In this document: positions 40,408 through 63,678 of the stretch, piece by piece | Layout: every line of letters begins with the position of its first letter | Numbering within the stretch: position 1 is the first letter of the stretch | Assembly (NCBI GenBank): GCA_902768665.1 | Contig: CACXMA010000009.1 | Coordinates: forward strand, 118,589 to 182,588 | DNA from: an uncultured Bacteroidia bacterium | GTDB lineage: Bacteria > Bacteroidota > Bacteroidia > Bacteroidales > UBA932 | DNA length: 64,000 nucleotides | Direction: 5' to 3' | The notes under the pieces: generated by a model | Told to the model about the DNA's origin: nothing | What the model saw: the letters and a program-made list of their open reading frames with translations, nothing else | Databases searched by the model: none | Position numbers and translations under genes: made by a program

Positions 40408-40480
40408 GGTGCTGTAGCTCAGATGGTAGAGCAATGGACTGAAAATCCATGTGTCGGCAGTTCGATTCTTCCCAGCACCA
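40408..40480 (+). tRNA. tRNA-Phe (GAA anticodon)
   Basis: 73 nt. Acceptor GGTGCTG pairs with CAGCACC, D arm AGCTCAGATGG, anticodon arm ATGGA-CTGAAAA-TCCAT (GAA), T arm GTTCGATTC. Discriminator A, no encoded CCA. Its 3' end is the left attachment site of the element that follows. Confidence 0.95.
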
Positions 40481-40481
40481 C
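40469..40481 (+). other. attL core
   Basis: TTCCCAGCACCAC, overlapping the T-arm/acceptor 3' end of tRNA-Phe; identical to 63666-63678. Confidence 0.85.
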
Positions 40482-40751: not shown

Positions 40752-41462
40752 ATGCCGCGCTTCACGCCATCCATACTTATCTCTGATTGTTGGGGCTCCG
40801 TTGGAGACCTCACCTTCTATCATATGGGCGGGCGCTGCTACTACAAGAAGAAGAGCCGGTGTGAATTCCCCGGGACCGACGCACAGAACAGCCAGCTCGA
40901 TGTTCATCGCCGGGCACTGGCTGCCTGGAGGACGCTGGAGCATTCGGTTCAACTGACCTGGAATGACCTCGCAAAGCCCGTTATTAGCCACAAGCCGCCC
41001 TTTGACAATACGGCGCACATCTCCGGCCAGAATCTCTTTGTAAGCGCTTATCACGGCTTCCATACGCTGGGCCACGAACACATCCCCTCCCCGCAAGCCT
41101 GGCAGGATTTCCCGATCTATTCTCTCGAGTTCCAGGACGCTGCCGTTGATGGCACCGACCTTCGCCTTTGTTTCCACTCTTATTTCCCCGAGACGGAGCC
41201 TGCAGGCCGCTACCAGGTGCTTGCCAAGATTCAACTTACAAAGCCCGGCTATGGACGGAAACCCGGCCTTATGAGGAATTTTCTTGCCTCCGCTCCATGT
41301 GCTACCGGCGATGGCTGCGTTTTCATCACAGTGGACAATTTCCGTGAGCGCTGGGACCTGGATCTGGACGAGTATCAGGTCCACTGCCGCTATGTCCTTC
41401 TTGACCGGCAAACTGGGTATCGAAACATTCATCGAGAACTCTCTTTCTTGGTGAAGTTGTAA
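40752..41462 (+). CDS. unknown protein, DUF6266-like architecture
   Basis: A 236-aa protein without signal peptide. The N-terminal part (SDCWGSVGDLTFYHMGGRCYYKKKS) and the helical segment with AAWRTLEHSVQLTWNDLAKP, then ISGQNLFVSAY, follow the same plan as the two paralogues downstream (SG..G motif; Q; W..L...W; SG.NLF). The C-terminal half is beta-rich. The plan resembles Bacteroidota proteins annotated DUF6266, often found in mobile DNA. Function unknown; a particle- or surface-structure role is only a guess. It has its own promoter. Confidence 0.65.
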   Translation: MPRFTPSILISDCWGSVGDLTFYHMGGRCYYKKKSRCEFPGTDAQNSQLDVHRRALAAWRTLEHSVQLTWNDLAKPVISHKPPFDNTAHISGQNLFVSAYHGFHTLGHEHIPSPQAWQDFPIYSLEFQDAAVDGTDLRLCFHSYFPETEPAGRYQVLAKIQLTKPGYGRKPGLMRNFLASAPCATGDGCVFITVDNFRERWDLDLDEYQVHCRYVLLDRQTGYRNIHRELSFLVKL

Positions 41463-41675: not shown

Positions 41676-42722
41676 ATGCAAGCGCTTCCTTCCATCGCTT
41701 TCGGGGGCTTCTCCGGTTCTGCCAAGGGTGTTACGGCTCGCCAAGTTGCGGGCCGTACCATCCTTTCGGTAAGGGCATGGCCCACCGGAGCCACCACCAA
41801 CGCACAGGTTGCCCGCCGTGCTTCCATGTCCAAAATCTCCAAGTCCTGGAAACTTCTCACAAACGAACAGATGCAAGAGTGGGACCGCCTGGCCGAGCAC
41901 ACCTCCGGCCAGTCCGCTTTTGGCCAGAAGGCAGAACTTTCCGGCATGAACCTTTATATCCGTCTCAATGTCAACCGTGCAATGGCTGGAGAATCCCTCC
42001 TCGCCACTGCCCCAGAGTCCACGGTAGCCTGTCCTAATGTAATATACGAGCAGATAGCCCTCACGCCTGAGATGGTTGTAATCGCCGGCATCACGCACGA
42101 ACCCAGCCCGTACAAACTTGTCCTGAAGATGTCCGCCTCCCAGAGCGCAGGCATTTCAAACGGCTGGGGCAAGACCGTCATCATCACTCCAGGTATGGAA
42201 GATGACTGGGGCGAGGCCGATGTCACGCACCTCTACTTCAAGACCATTGGCGTGGAGCCGGTTGTCGGAGAGAAGGTTTTCATCGAGGCTTACTGGCTTG
42301 ACACTTCCACCGGATTTGCTGGCCAACCCATTCAGGAATATGCCATTGTTACTGGCAGTTCTCCTTACCAGCGTCGTATAAAGGCAACTATGGATGACCT
42401 TGACCCCACGGAGGAAAGCCACGTGTCTTCCTTGGACGTGGACTTCTCTACCGGTGCTCCGGTGGCGCAGTTCAATGCCCAGTGTCTGGGTCACAGCAAT
42501 GTGGCTTCCTCCGAGGTCTACCTGGACGAACTTCTTCCCTCCGAGGTTATCGGCACGGGAATGTGCATCGGGCGCTCCAATGATGCGGATGGCCACATCA
42601 ACGCTCAGTCCTATCTGGTGTACATGTATAATTGGAGGGGCAAGACTCAGTTGACCTTTGCTCACCGTGGAGGTACCTACTACACTCACACCGAGGTTTT
42701 CGGAACCGGAATCATCTATTAA
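41676..42722 (+). CDS. unknown protein, DUF6266-like paralogue
   Basis: A 348-aa protein. PSIAFGGFSGSAKGVTARQVAGR, then TNAQVARRASMSKISKSWKLLTNEQMQEWDRLAE and LSGMNLYIRLN define a conserved N-terminal module of about 100 residues shared with the 43517 gene. The C-terminal 240 residues are beta-rich and Ig-like (ITHEPSPYKLVLKMS). No signal peptide or catalytic motif. First gene of a three-gene run ending at the 44243 terminator. Confidence 0.7.
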   Translation: MQALPSIAFGGFSGSAKGVTARQVAGRTILSVRAWPTGATTNAQVARRASMSKISKSWKLLTNEQMQEWDRLAEHTSGQSAFGQKAELSGMNLYIRLNVNRAMAGESLLATAPESTVACPNVIYEQIALTPEMVVIAGITHEPSPYKLVLKMSASQSAGISNGWGKTVIITPGMEDDWGEADVTHLYFKTIGVEPVVGEKVFIEAYWLDTSTGFAGQPIQEYAIVTGSSPYQRRIKATMDDLDPTEESHVSSLDVDFSTGAPVAQFNAQCLGHSNVASSEVYLDELLPSEVIGTGMCIGRSNDADGHINAQSYLVYMYNWRGKTQLTFAHRGGTYYTHTEVFGTGIIY

Positions 42723-42740: not shown

Positions 42741-43481
42741 ATGTTCAATAGCATATCCAATAACTTCGGAGCCGGCCAGATAACCTTCAAGGACTATCAG
42801 GCTCCGAATTACGTGGTCCTGAATGCGAAGGTAACTTTTGACCCAACGAATCCGGACTACCAGGCCTGCGAGCAACTGGAGATAACCGTTCCAGATCTCA
42901 CCATTGACCGAAGCACTGTCGGTGGCGTATTCATCCGTTTTGAAGAGACGCAACACTATTCATGGGGCGATTCCATCTATGATGGCGGAACCGTACTCAA
43001 ATCCTGGATTAAGGACAAAAATACAATTGTCGTGGAAAAGCAGCCGTGGTTCGACCAGAATGGTCCGCTCATCCTCTATTTCGTTACAATGTATGCGCAG
43101 CTGAACCAAGGGGCGAATACCATCAAGGGAACGAGGCAACGTCTAACTGTAACGACCGAGGGTGACTATCTTCGATTCTCTTACGACTCATTTCTTGTTG
43201 TTTTCGACCACTGGGTGTTTATGCACCTGCAGTTCTCCAGTTGCGCCTATGCTTACCGGGATTCGCCCTGGGAGGCGACCTTCGAGGAACTCCCTGCTGA
43301 CGTTACAGCAGAAGTGCCGGTCCCGGGCGGTGGCAACCAATTCCATCAGAATTGTTTCGGTATGGGCGAATGTCACCTCGAGAACAAAATCTTCACGATG
43401 GACCGCCGAGTGGCTGGATTCTGGGACACCGGCCGAGAACCTTTCGCCTTCGCGTTCCTTGTAAGAGACACAAATGAATAA
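42741..43481 (+). CDS. unknown element protein, beta-rich
   Basis: A 246-aa protein 18 bp after the previous gene. It lacks the SGSAKGVTA module and has no signal peptide or membrane helix. The sequence is rich in aromatic residues and beta strands (QLEITVPDLTIDRSTVGGVFIRFEE, DHWVFMHLQFSSCAYAY). No family recognised. The position between two paralogous DUF6266-like genes suggests one assembly or pathway. Confidence 0.65.
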   Translation: MFNSISNNFGAGQITFKDYQAPNYVVLNAKVTFDPTNPDYQACEQLEITVPDLTIDRSTVGGVFIRFEETQHYSWGDSIYDGGTVLKSWIKDKNTIVVEKQPWFDQNGPLILYFVTMYAQLNQGANTIKGTRQRLTVTTEGDYLRFSYDSFLVVFDHWVFMHLQFSSCAYAYRDSPWEATFEELPADVTAEVPVPGGGNQFHQNCFGMGECHLENKIFTMDRRVAGFWDTGREPFAFAFLVRDTNE

Positions 43482-43516: not shown

Positions 43517-44209
43517 ATGAAGTACATTCCTTCCATCGCCTTTGAGGAGATGAGCGGCAGCGCCAAGGGCGTGACCGCTGCAAAGATGAAGAACCGGAAG
43601 TACATCCGTAACCGTGGTTACGGTGGAAGCATCCGGACTTCTGACCAGGCCAAGGTGAAGAGCGTCTTCAAGATGCTCACCACCAAGTGGAAAACCCTCA
43701 CCAACGAGCAGATTCTCGCGTGGAATAAGCTCGCTCTCTCGCAGGCCGGACGTTCCGTGCTGGGCACCAGCGCCAAGATTTCCGGCTCCAACCTGTTCAC
43801 CCGCCTGAACTACTGGGTCGTGACCCTCGGTGGCCAGGTCATGGTGACTCCTCCGGAGCTGAATTCCGTGGAGGCCCCTTCCACCGCCACCATCGTGTGC
43901 CAGGGTGACACCTTCACCTTCAAGCTGGATGAGGCACCTGCCGACAACGGCGGTCTGTTCCTCATCATCGAGGCCACCGAAGGCCAGTCCAACGGTGTGT
44001 CCCGCGCCCATGCGAAGGCTGCGGCCATCCATCAGGAAGAAGAGCCCACTGCCACCGCAATCGACATCCGTGCCGAGTACGTGGCCAAGAACGGTGCCCC
44101 TGGTGCCGCTGCTCCCAAGATCTTCTTCCGCTACTACCTGGTTGACTCCAGCACTGGCGTCAAGTCCCAGGTCATGCTGGCGGAGACCAAGTGGGTCGCT
44201 GGGGCCTAA
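43517..44209 (+). CDS. unknown protein, DUF6266-like paralogue
   Basis: A 230-aa protein whose N-terminal 100 residues match the 41676 product: PSIAFEEMSGSAKGVTAAKMK, then VFKMLTTKWKTLTNEQILAWNKLAL and ISGSNLFTRLNYW. The C-terminal half is a single beta-rich domain ending in QVMLAETKWVAGA. It is last in the cluster and followed by a terminator at 44243-44277. The structured non-coding region starts just downstream. Confidence 0.7.
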   Translation: MKYIPSIAFEEMSGSAKGVTAAKMKNRKYIRNRGYGGSIRTSDQAKVKSVFKMLTTKWKTLTNEQILAWNKLALSQAGRSVLGTSAKISGSNLFTRLNYWVVTLGGQVMVTPPELNSVEAPSTATIVCQGDTFTFKLDEAPADNGGLFLIIEATEGQSNGVSRAHAKAAAIHQEEEPTATAIDIRAEYVAKNGAPGAAAPKIFFRYYLVDSSTGVKSQVMLAETKWVAGA

Positions 44210-44242
44210 TCCCGAGGGCAGAACCACTGCCAACCTAAACCG

Positions 44243-44277
44243 AACCCTTCGTAGTCGAGAGATTGCGAAGGGTTTTT
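44243..44277 (+). terminator. Rho-independent terminator
   Basis: AACCCTTCG/CGAAGGGTT stem with a 14-nt loop and TTTC tail, ending the DUF6266-like cluster. Confidence 0.8.
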
Positions 44278-44377
44278 CATATCTATCTGACAGGGCCTAC
44301 CCCGGGCCGGGCCACACAACGGAAGTCTTGGGCATGTTAATAGCAAATAAGTAACTCCTAAATACAACAGACCTCAA

Positions 44378-45520
44378 GCGAAGCGGTGCGGCGTGAGCCG
44401 CACTGCCTTTTTGTATATGTATTTACCCCTTTTCTGGCCCTCCGGGCGGGTGATGCCGGTCGATTACGCACTGAGGCTGAAGCGGGAGTTGAAAGAAGGC
44501 CTATGGTGCTGGAAGTCTCAAAGGCGGGACGGTCCGGGCGGGAGATGTCGCCGGCTTACATACTCTCTTTGATGCGGGAACCCGGCTTTGAGTCTTCCAG
44601 TGCCATAGGGCGCGGAACGAGCGAAGCGAGTGGAGCGTGGCCCTGGAGGCGGTCTGGCAGGTGTGGGGGCGGCGGGCTCTGGAGCGCCGTGGAAGGGAGA
44701 CCTTGGGCTCCCTGGAACAGCGGAAGAGACCGACGCGAAGGGAGGACAGACGGCCTCCGGGGTCTGAGCCGGAACGGCTCACCGTGTGAGCGACGCACAG
44801 ACCTTGATGCGGGGTACGACGGTATTCGCGAACTGGCACTGACCTTCGAATAGAAGCAAGAAGCCAACACCTTTGATGCGGGCGGGACCGCGCAGTCTGT
44901 GGCAGATTCATTCTGACACTGTCTGCGCCAGCAGCCGGGACGGCTGCCTCCTGGCTGCCCGGAAGGCTTCTGACGGGATTCTTCCCGGCAGAGGCCTGGA
45001 GGAATAGCGGCCAGGTTAAACTCTACCTTGGAGGAACGGTGCCGGAAGTGGTGTGGCAGGCTTGCCCTGACACACGACTGGAGGTACCGGGCCGACCCCG
45101 AGCGAAGCGATTAAGGCGGCGGACTTGCTCGCATAGCACTACGGCTCCCAGCGGGCTCCCTACCCTCGCACAGCACTGACGTTCTGCGGGGCTGCACTTT
45201 GCGCCCCCGAATTCTGGCACTGACGGTTCTTTGATGCTCGCGCAAAGTGCGGCGCTCCCGGGTTGAGGGAGGGGTGGTCCCTCCCTCCCGGGAGTGCCTT
45301 GTCCGCCGCCGCCTCACCCGGGAATTCGGAGGTAGGACCTTCGCACCTTGACGACGGAGCGTCCTTAACATAATCCGAATTGTGTAATCAGCCGCCCTGT
45401 AGGCCGTTTTTGCGGGCTTCTGGCCCATCAATAATTGATGCCCTGCGAGCGGGAGATTCCGGTGCCGGCGGCTGTTACACAATTCCGATGGGATTATGTT
45501 ATGGAAAGCGGGATAGATGC
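44378..45520 (+). ncRNA. giant structured RNA candidate
   Basis: No convincing protein gene lies between 44278 and 45827. The interval holds many strong helices: 44380-44406 (GCGGTGCGGC/GCCGCACTGC); 44500-44528 with 44581-44609 (about 29 bp); 44641-44656 with 44747-44762; 44765-44781; 44890-44928; 44965-44996; 45194-45204 with 45240-45250; 45251-45262 with 45287-45298; 45366-45387 with 45475-45501. Wobble pairs in the helices read G-U on the plus strand and would be A-C on the minus strand, which fixes the strand. The motif CTTTGATGC recurs at about 44570, 44870 and 45229. Ends are approximate. It resembles the large ornate RNAs of phages and mobile elements in size and setting, but no class could be matched. 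Confidence 0.65.
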
Positions 45521-45779
45521 ACTGCCGTTCGCGCTGGCACTGCGGCTCCCGGGTGATTATCTTCCCCTCCGGGGACTGAGGGGCATAAACCAGCACGGTG
45601 AGCTGGCGGTTGTGGAGCAAGCGCAGCGAGCGGATGGTCTGGCTGTTTGGGCGGAGGCTTTGACGGAGACCAAACTGACAGACGAGCAAGTACCTTTTTC
45701 CTTATGGACGGTGACATCGGCACTGCCGTTGGAAAATGGCACCATCGGCCTATATCATCGACATCGACCTAAAAGAGTC
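45521..45779. other. non-coding stretch, 3' flank of the structured region
   Basis: A hairpin CCCCTCCGGGGACTGAGGGG-type (about 45564-45583) is visible; a 120-aa open frame across 45435-45797 overlaps the helix at 45366-45501 and has no family signature, so it is not called as a gene. Confidence 0.4.
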
Positions 45780-45827
45780 GTTCCGTTCCACTTATAAAAC
45801 GGAACTGATGGAACGGGTGGAACGGCT
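45780..45827. repeat. iteron-like cluster 1
   Basis: GTTCCGTTCCAC, a 9-bp AT-rich gap, then three direct 9-mers GGAACTGAT, GGAACGGGT, GGAACGGCT (45801-45827). The same arrangement recurs at 56599-56645 and, inverted, at 57652-57700. Confidence 0.7.
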
Positions 45828-46619
45828 TTAATAGTAGCTTCTTTCCTTGACCTTTGCCTTTATCATTGCTGGCGAGATGGTGAAGGTTACCTTTTCTGAG
45901 GTGCTCCTGCTCCAGTAGATATACTTAATGCCCATTCCGCTTTTGCGGAGATAATTTGCGAAAAGGATTTCGGCCGCATCAGTGGAAGCATTAAACTCTT
46001 CAATAATACTATCTTCCATGTCTGTTCCGTCAGCTTTAGCCATTTTGAGAAGAGGGATAGTGATTACGCTTTCATCAGTCTTTACTTTGTAGCAGATATA
46101 ATTCCCTTCAATATACACCGAGGTTAAGCTAAGCCCATCACCCCAATCCTCTGGCAAGCCTTCCTGCATTTGCTTGACCGTCTCGACCATAAAGTCTTTC
46201 GCATTGTATTCGTTCTCGGCAGGACTCTTAATCTCATTGGCTGTTAACGCTATCTCTCCTTTCTTTCTTGATTGTTTGCCCGTAACGAGGAATTTAAGAT
46301 TAAGACCAGACTTGGCAAATAGGTCAGCAAAGTCTTTGTTGTTACCTGCTGCTAATGTGAAAAGATTAGACTTGTTCTGATTCATGTTGGACATATACTG
46401 ATCCATATCCATCAAGTCTTCATCTATTGTAGCATATATTATATAGTCGTTCCCTTTTATCTCCATTCTTTCTAAAGTGATGAATGAAGCTGTTATTGGT
46501 AATTGCTTATTTGTCTGAACGAGCCCCTGCTTAAGAGCCATTACAGCTTCGTTGCGCGTTTGTCCACATGACAATAGACAAATCGAGAGAGAAATAAGGA
46601 GGATAAAAAACTTCTTCAT
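45828..46619 (-). CDS. lipoprotein of unknown function (AT-rich operon)
   Basis: A 263-aa lipoprotein: signal MKKFFILLISLSICLLSC with Cys at residue 18. The mature part is mixed alpha/beta with no named domain (ITLERMEIKGNDYIIYATID, DGLSLTSVYIEGNYICYKVK). The sequence is visibly more AT-rich than the rest of the window, as are the three genes upstream of it. It is the last gene of the four-gene minus-strand run 50298-45828. Export to the envelope is supported by the signal; function is unknown. Confidence 0.7.
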   Translation of the reverse strand: MKKFFILLISLSICLLSCGQTRNEAVMALKQGLVQTNKQLPITASFITLERMEIKGNDYIIYATIDEDLMDMDQYMSNMNQNKSNLFTLAAGNNKDFADLFAKSGLNLKFLVTGKQSRKKGEIALTANEIKSPAENEYNAKDFMVETVKQMQEGLPEDWGDGLSLTSVYIEGNYICYKVKTDESVITIPLLKMAKADGTDMEDSIIEEFNASTDAAEILFANYLRKSGMGIKYIYWSRSTSEKVTFTISPAMIKAKVKERSYY

Positions 46620-62022: not shown

Positions 62023-63417
62023 TTATTTCTTTTTGAATGCTTTTTCCATCTTCTTGATGGCATCCTTCTTCGCATCCTCGGTGATGTCGATATATGGCTT
62101 CATGGACTTGTAGTCGCAGTGGCCGGTGAACTTCATCACAACGTCCGGCGGGACACCATTGGAAAGAGCGAAGCAGATGAAGGTCTTGCGGCCGGTATGG
62201 GTGCCAATGAGTTCGTACTTGGGATAGACTTCGTCATAGCGGGTTCCATTGCGGTAACCGGTGATCGTGTAAGGTGTGGTGAAGCCACATATTTCTCCAA
62301 GGTCTTTCAGGCAACGGTTCATTTGCTGGTTGGTCATGTAAGGAAGCGCCTTGCCCTGGGGGAAACTTTCCTTTTCATATTTCTTAAGGATGGCTTTGGC
62401 GTTTTTGTGTAAGACAATCGGCAGGCGGTCATGGGTCTTCTGTGTGGTGATGGTCATCACGCCATTCTGGATGTCGGTGCGGCGGACCTCCACAACATCG
62501 GAATACCGGAGGCTTGTGAAAGCGCAGAAGCAGAAGAGGTCGCGGGCCTTTCCTAACGCAACGGACTCCATGACGGTCTTTTTATAATCCTTCCCGTCCA
62601 TGTCTTTCAGATCCAGGACAGTGCCGTTCTTTGGAATCTCAAGGTTATACAGGGTGTCCAGTTCATCCTTAGTGAGGAAGATAACCGGTTTCTTCACAGT
62701 CTTGAATACAGGCTCGTAGGTTTCAACGTCACGCACCTGAGTGTAGCCTTTACGGATGGCCCAGCGGAGGAACCAGGTGAGGTTCTTGTATTGCTTCTGG
62801 ACGGAATTCTCCTCCAGGCCGCAGTCGGAGCGAAGGTAGGTAATAAATTTGTCCAGGCCGTTTTTGTCATAGAAGTCCAGACCGGCGGTCTTCTTGAATT
62901 TGAGGAGGTGATTCTTGAAGGATTTGACCATTTTCAGGGTCTCCATGCTCCATTCTTTAATGCGGCTTTCCTCACGGATGAATTCGTCCATGTATTCTGT
63001 GGCCGGCTTAACCTTCGGCTTCTTTTCGATCGGTTTGGCTGCCTCTACTTTCTCCTCGACAACCTCGGGGGCATCCTTGTTTGCGATTGACGCAATGCGG
63101 ACCTCATTCTTTCGCAACACCTTCTCAAACTCTTTCGCTAATGCCTCTGCAGTAGGCTTATCATCAAGGGAAAGGTCGTAAGTGGAGAAATGAGAACGAA
63201 TCTCCCTGATGCGAGAATTGATGACACGGTAGTCTTTTCCAGCAGCATTCACACAGCCTTTGCTGACCTCTTCTGCTTCTCCGTCCCACTTCTTCTCTGA
63301 AATTGTGTATCCGATAAGGCGTTGAAGGCGGACGCCACGAATGTTTATGTCCGCACGGATGGGCTGCTCTCCCGCCTTATTGAGGTCGCCCTTTTTGAGA
63401 TAAAACCTTATTTTCAT
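62023..63417 (-). CDS. tyrosine-type site-specific integrase
   Basis: A 464-aa recombinase of the phage-integrase family. N-terminal arm-binding domain (MKIRFYLKKGDLNKAGEQPIRADINIRGVR), a SAM-like core-binding domain (about 155-245), then the catalytic domain: Arg in TSLRYSDV near residue 304, HTGRK near 404, and TGHCDYKSMKPYIDI with the Tyr nucleophile near residue 440. All catalytic residues are present, so it should be active. Its gene lies at the right end of the element, reading inward from attR, as expected for the enzyme that uses the tRNA-Phe site. Confidence 0.92.
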   Translation of the reverse strand: MKIRFYLKKGDLNKAGEQPIRADINIRGVRLQRLIGYTISEKKWDGEAEEVSKGCVNAAGKDYRVINSRIREIRSHFSTYDLSLDDKPTAEALAKEFEKVLRKNEVRIASIANKDAPEVVEEKVEAAKPIEKKPKVKPATEYMDEFIREESRIKEWSMETLKMVKSFKNHLLKFKKTAGLDFYDKNGLDKFITYLRSDCGLEENSVQKQYKNLTWFLRWAIRKGYTQVRDVETYEPVFKTVKKPVIFLTKDELDTLYNLEIPKNGTVLDLKDMDGKDYKKTVMESVALGKARDLFCFCAFTSLRYSDVVEVRRTDIQNGVMTITTQKTHDRLPIVLHKNAKAILKKYEKESFPQGKALPYMTNQQMNRCLKDLGEICGFTTPYTITGYRNGTRYDEVYPKYELIGTHTGRKTFICFALSNGVPPDVVMKFTGHCDYKSMKPYIDITEDAKKDAIKKMEKAFKKK

Positions 63418-63665: not shown

Positions 63666-63678
63666 TTCCCAGCACCAC
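63666..63678 (+). other. attR core
   Basis: TTCCCAGCACCAC, identical to attL (40469-40481). Confidence 0.85.

Follow-up and report, generated by a model that had tools for sequence, protein, structure and literature searches.

A probable giant structured RNA, new to Rfam, on integrative elements of Bacteroidales

The question raised by this locus was what a gene-poor interval of more than a kilobase might specify within a mobile element. The window, by which is meant the whole 64,000-nucleotide stretch of DNA that was analysed, contains at 44378..45520 an interval that a preliminary description had read as a giant structured, probably non-coding RNA. Covariation among relatives and the lack of codon bias both favour an RNA, and the probability that the stretch is a giant structured RNA is put at roughly 0.93. 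The RNA represents a family new to Rfam, non-coding and on the plus strand, which is carried on integrative elements of Bacteroidales and usually adjoins a four-gene module, a-b-d-c. The sequence is conserved, structured and non-coding, has a plus-strand bias and recurring motifs, and is linked to integration ends and to the module; it is presumably transcribed. The limits first proposed call for adjustment, as conservation begins at 44388 and extends to about 45773. On the basis of blastn matches, a 45-copy alignment and the structure, the window copy was assigned to 44388..45773 of the plus strand, from the 5' head to the last conserved 3' hairpin region. It measures 1386 nt from the head to the equivalent of 45773, and the copies at loci L036, L037, L051, L057 and L061 measure 1493-1606 nt.

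The setting agrees with the integrated element that had been proposed. A tRNA-Phe gene (40408..40481, plus strand), the probable integration site, lies at one end, and a tyrosine integrase (62023..63417, minus strand) lies at the other, together with a weak 13-bp copy of the 3' end of the tRNA (63666..63678, plus strand; E 0.011) that is probably an att site. Positions 40408-63678 thus probably form a 23-kb integrative element at tRNA-Phe, arranged as tRNA-Phe, a, b, d, c, RNA, cargo, integrase and 13-bp repeat. The cargo comprises a type IIG restriction-modification protein, a type II methyltransferase, a candidate defence protein, a DUF6371 protein and an AAA_25 ATPase; a T5orf172 protein, which we take to be of the GIY-YIG type, is located in the restriction cluster 5 kb from the RNA. 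Among relatives, a co-directional integrase ends at most 4 kb upstream of the RNA in 15 of 54 rows, corresponding to 13 distinct contigs (L113 and L132 are identical, as are L082 and L155), and tRNAs were found on 10 of the 47 relative loci scanned.

The companion module occupies the plus strand upstream of the RNA and consists of gene a (40752..41462, 236 aa), gene b (41676..42722, 348 aa), gene d (42741..43481, 246 aa) and gene c (43517..44209, 230 aa). The products of a and c are homologous (hhalign probability 97.7%, E 2.3e-12). Searches of Pfam, PHROGs and NCBIfam with the window's four proteins returned no family at E values up to 1, profiles of a and c gave chance matches only against PDB sequences, and protein a had no match in phages. 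DUF6266, which the style of the motifs had suggested, was unsupported by Pfam. Of 45 copies of the RNA in all, 40 have at least 800 nt of upstream sequence, and in 39 of these a module gene lies within 1.5 kb on the 5' side, directed away from the RNA in 34 and towards it in 5; the remaining copy (L106) has an integrase-like frame there (57 bits). The a-b-d-c operon can thus lie either way round with respect to the RNA, as though the module flipped or were swapped as a cassette. Some copies (L036 8354-8632, L052, L062, L067 and others) have a small protein of 92 aa, with many acidic residues, encoded in the gap that separates gene a from the RNA. The gene a profile matched in 57 of 200 genomes of the genus, some of the matches being fragments or paralogues. 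Twenty gene a loci were chosen at which blastn had found no RNA or a fragment only; a nucleotide profile found RNA sequence, some of it short, in 13 of them and none in the other 7, in one of which gene a lies at a contig edge. L161, a further gene a locus, likewise gave no RNA with the nucleotide profile. Among 198 genomes of the order, 4 had relatives of c, and two of these 4 belong to other families. At L171 (1259-3270), a c relative adjoins a phage-type replication (Rep) gene and matches Inoviridae sequence MW202486 weakly (31% identity, E 2e-5); an inovirus link of protein c is a lead only.

The distribution of the RNA was surveyed by sequence, pattern and covariance-model searches. Of 200 genomes from the window's genus, 48 gave blastn matches to positions 44300-45800, many matches being partial and some covering the 3' tail alone; the same query had no match in the phage and plasmid collections. 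An exact 24-base pattern was found in 39 stretches of a species-genome collection, whose titles name Bacteroidales or Bacteroidia (37), Paludibacteraceae (1) and Desulfovibrio (1). Rumen, omasum or abomasum is named in 13 of the 39 titles, and the RUG prefix borne by many of them presumably denotes rumen genomes. Two IMG/VR contigs carry the exact pattern, and a second pattern returned the same two. A covariance model of one domain (R1), built on the branched core at 44639..44781 of the plus strand, was searched against genomes with stricter filters that lose weak matches. Within the genus it matched 30 of 200 genomes, and within the family 15 of 299, these coming from three genera and including one weak match. 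The 393 genomes sampled from the order and the 296 sampled from the phylum gave a single match each, in both cases the window's own genome, and R1 matched no other genome outside the window's family in either sample.

Several copies are incomplete or unusually placed. A second copy in the window's own genome (L070 8591-9140, G000:C14:48590-49139) is about 550 nt long and internally shortened: blastn matches skip the middle (equivalent to 44551-45296), both ends are kept, and gene a adjoins. Copies of the 3' tail alone occur at L045 (2001-2162), L046 (9647-9712), L047 (9834-9887), L054 (10010-10055) and L034 (5238-5341), and in all five the blastn match stops at the same base, equivalent to 45634. 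The first four loci have no other RNA match, and L034 carries a full copy 9 kb from its tail. The RNA also occurs at L096 (1-1040), a contig titled Desulfovibrio, where the aligned 3' domain looks the same as that of L109, a Bacteroidales contig; L096 is either a misbinned contig or a case of transfer. Copies often run to a contig end (for example L050, L052, L062, L067, L073 and L109), as is expected of a multi-copy sequence that breaks assemblies.

For structure analysis, all 45 copies were aligned; folding used the 44 that reach 1000 bases or more, without the shorter L070 copy. In a held-out test, greedy clusters at 85% identity were kept within one half, giving 22 copies against 22. The structure derived from one half formed 88.3% standard pairs in the other, and 161 of its 322 pairs had changes on both sides, compared with a mean of 96.7 and a maximum of 107 in 100 shuffles. 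The reverse split gave 91.5% pairing and 148 of 329 such pairs (shuffles: mean 89.8, maximum 103), and pairing fell to 37-46% when partners were slid by 1-3 columns. For positions 44498-44785, 97.6% of cells were paired over 35 copies and 72 pairs, 38 pairs had changed on both sides, and none of 500 shuffles was as high on any of five measures. The shuffle controls ignore kinship and the copies are close kin, so the significance in both sets of tests is overstated. The fold of all 44 copies has 315 pairs. Of the 32 consensus helices that reach 4 bp or more, 30 have one or more pairs in which both sides changed; the original count of at least nine strong helices was therefore an understatement. 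Covariation is weaker in the domain 45300-45560 (7 of 28 pairs), since most of its long helix does not vary in sequence.

Both of the long-range helices described at the outset were recovered. The one at 44500-44528/44581-44609 (44500..44609, plus strand) is 29 nt long and 86% complementary in the window; in the 44-copy consensus it has 27 bp with 97% of cells paired, and over 35 copies its 27 pairs, 17 of them changed on both sides, are paired in 97.8% of cells. It contains an internal AGUCU/AGUCU stem with a central U.U pair. The other was found as two parts, 45362-45387 with 45475-45505, which are kept in relatives as helices of 12 and 17 bp (99% and 91% of cells paired). The switch suggested for the overlapping helices 44765-44781 and 44777-44791 found no support: the former is kept (96% paired in the consensus), and the right arm of its rival, 44786-44791, has letters in only 8-9 of 27 aligned copies.

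The strand and the coding potential were assessed on the same copies. The plus-strand G-T bias of non-Watson-Crick pairs noted in the window holds across all 44, which have 699 G-U against 207 A-C pairs when folded as the plus strand and 443 against 257 when folded as the minus strand. The fold z-scores of 44388-45370, each from 20 shuffles, were -5.25 for the plus and -4.08 for the minus strand. Stop-free runs on the minus strand have a median of 205 and a maximum of 344 codons, exceeding the 201 that shuffles reach at the 95th percentile, which would suit a protein-coding gene with structure as its by-product. However, the mismatch rate by position modulo 3 varied by a max/min ratio of only 1.06-1.28 in ten windows along the RNA, none with a period of three, compared with 1.79-, 2.64- and 2.30-fold in genes a, b and c. 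The earlier finding of no credible gene was borne out, and a minus-strand gene is ruled out by the absent codon periodicity despite the long stop-free runs. Helix and gap lengths also vary among copies, and a coding gene on either strand is given almost no weight.

From 5' to 3' on the plus strand, the RNA begins with a conserved head at 44383..44428, formed by a hairpin (10 bp in the window) and then a TATA-rich box. A GC-rich hairpin is present in 36 of 38 copies compared, all but L074 and L083, and a TATATATTTATACC-like box is part of the head. Promoter (sigma-70-type) and terminator scans found the head hairpin (44383-44406) terminator-like in the window and were uninformative on L036; the head is possibly a promoter, an operator or part of the RNA. 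Downstream of the core, the consensus has hairpins at 44889-44929 and 44931-44947 and a stem, 44950-44958/45007-45015, with an inner hairpin at 44964-44997; GGAGGAATAGC is present in 35 of 44 copies within this region (44889..45024). A covarying hairpin follows at 45038..45088 (19 bp, 17 pairs changed on both sides, 83% paired), and then a consensus domain at 45115..45310 closed by 45115-45124/45301-45310, with inner helices at 45194-45250 and 45251-45298. The 3' domain (45314..45556), drawn from alignment and consensus, is closed by 45314-45323/45547-45556 and includes the helix 45364-45396/45467-45504, in part of invariant sequence. Relatives carry a terminal hairpin and additional hairpins at the 3' end. 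Comparison with these relatives places the 5' half of the terminal hairpin at 45594..45634 in the window copy, where the 3' half is missing and the conserved 3' hairpin region (45635..45773), located further downstream in relatives, is joined directly to 45634. About 140 bases are lacking between 45634 and 45635 relative to L036; the window copy appears to miss part of its 3' end and may not be intact.

Short motifs recur within this fold. The motif CTTTGATGC does recur as first described, at 44567, 44871 and 45229, and its core TTGATGC occurs 5 times in the RNA, against 0.2 expected from the remainder of the window; the proposed equivalence of the loops failed, as TTGATGCG starts at 13 alignment columns. 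TTGATGCG has 37 occurrences at those columns in 22 of 44 copies, and GCACTGAC has 66 at 12 columns in 34 of 44, both at non-homologous places and mostly outside the consensus helices. Their consensus pairing was 0.08 and 0.19, against 0.43 for all bases, with columns left out of folding scored as unpaired; in single-copy folds the values were 0.57 and 0.58, compared with 0.67 for 8-mers of similar GC content. A first reading of the UUGAUGCG and GCACUGAC motifs as unpaired was weakened by those single-copy values. AGUCU/AGUCU stems with a central U.U occur in the long helix and in other hairpins. Across the 45 copies their mean number is 1.87 per copy and in shuffles 0.0, a tally that includes some alternative pairings. 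At least one such hairpin is found in 42 of the 45 copies and just one in the window copy, and AGTCT itself occurs 4.9 times per copy and its complement 0.69 times. When six genomes bearing the RNA were scanned for the AGUCU hairpin pattern, 12 of the 15 matches fell at RNA loci; a less strict version, applied to the window's own genome, gave four matches elsewhere and none at the RNA. CACTGAC has three plus-strand occurrences in the window, all inside the RNA. GCGAAGC, which as DNA forms an exceptionally stable mini-hairpin, is present on the plus strand at 44621 and 45102 and in relatives (1.53 per copy, complement 0.09).

A resemblance to GOLLD and ROOL had been proposed from size and setting, and it stands as a likeness of size class and setting, not as membership. 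At gathering scores, Rfam 15 returned two tRNAs only from the whole window. With E values up to 10, positions 44200-45850 gave ten matches (nine miRNA families and one lncRNA family; best E 0.25), none of them to the GOLLD, ROOL, OLE, HEARO or group I/II intron models. A literature search of titles and abstract openings found no description of this RNA. It is the same kind of thing as GOLLD and ROOL without being a member of those families: it is long with many covarying helices, and it lies on mobile elements, often near tRNAs. Beyond the missing Rfam match, GOLLD, described as having "many members exceeding 800 nucleotides" against about 1.4-1.6 kb here, differs in that the present RNA lies on Bacteroidales integrative elements beside a-b-d-c, and such scans as covered the window element showed no phage structural gene. 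ROOL is less than half the size of the present RNA and differs in lacking an Rfam match here and in the recurring AGUCU/AGUCU stems, which belong to the present RNA. OLE is similarly a large ornate bacterial RNA (577 nt) with proposed protein partners, but it too has no Rfam match here and its gene context is another. Ornate RNAs with solved structures are RNA-only cages or dimers with poorly understood functions (PMC12286853), and ROOL is the subject of a commentary (PMC12515178).

The function most likely to apply, held tentatively and at less than even odds, is that of a multivalent protein scaffold. The folded RNA would display repeated short sites, namely the AGUCU/AGUCU stems with their U.U pair and the recurring UUGAUGCG and GCACUGAC segments; these would gather element-encoded proteins, for which a, b and c are the best candidates, into a ribonucleoprotein particle that would serve the upkeep or transfer of the element. 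The held-out covariation, the helix controls, the plus-strand fold, the lack of codon periodicity, the module gene beside 39 of 40 testable copies, the frequency of AGUCU hairpins and their concentration at RNA loci, and the recurrence of TTGATGCG and GCACTGAC at non-homologous places are all consistent with such a scaffold. Against it, proteins a-d have no known domain and the a and c profiles find nothing in the PDB, so that they are candidate RNA binders only; gene a also occurs without the RNA (7 of 20 loci and L161), and the module takes both orientations. The motifs are paired in single-copy folds nearly as often as like sequence, TTGATGCG is absent from half of the copies, and the window copy has a single AGUCU hairpin, with the looser pattern hitting its genome only elsewhere. 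The weakened unpaired-motif reading lowered the rating of the scaffold and slightly raised those of an RNA-only assembly and a regulatory RNA. As GOLLD and ROOL do, the RNA might instead form homo-oligomers or a hollow cage by itself, its motifs making tertiary or intermolecular contacts. Such an assembly, which is possible though rather unlikely, fits the size class, the ornate covarying fold and the mobile-element and tRNA setting, which agree with what PMC12286853 says of GOLLD and ROOL; it sits less well with the lack of any Rfam relation to either family and with the close protein-module linkage, which is absent from the ROOL description in the consulted portion of that paper.

The recurring motifs, and the conserved head beside a divergent gene a in most copies, could also belong to a regulatory or decoy RNA that titrates a host or helper-phage factor, or to a very long regulatory leader. 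Such RNAs are usually far smaller than this one, and no downstream gene cluster recurs beyond a few compared loci except frames overlapping the 3' end of the RNA (cluster 2, 9 loci), which makes this account improbable. More doubtful still is that the structured strand acts as single-stranded DNA, as a packaging signal, origin or recombination substrate of an element of inovirus-like ancestry: G-T tolerance alone does not separate the two nucleic acids, and the GCGAAGC hairpins and the c relative beside a Rep gene would suit DNA, but wobble is the commonest state at some positions (U-G 26/35, G-U 30/35), which fits RNA better, and the window-element proteins scanned included no rolling-circle Rep. 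A self-splicing or other ribozyme, or a decayed intron, would be in keeping with a large ornate RNA on a mobile element. It is judged very unlikely, as Rfam gave no match to an intron or ribozyme at E values up to 10 and scans of window-element proteins turned up no reverse transcriptase; the T5orf172 protein lies 5 kb away in the restriction cluster. A long shot is that the RNA forms the structural core of a virus-like or satellite particle, in which a, b and c, as distant kin of an inovirus-like protein, would coat or fill a framework of ~1.5 kb.

To our knowledge, few structured bacterial RNAs other than ribosomal RNA exceed 800 nt, and this is a separate family, up to about twice the size of GOLLD. 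It offers enough diverged copies for structure work, linked candidate protein partners and recurring short motifs, so that binding hypotheses can be tested. The virus-like particle, if real, would be an RNA-scaffolded vehicle for the transfer of integrative elements, and the family as a whole could reveal the purpose of giant mobile-element RNAs.
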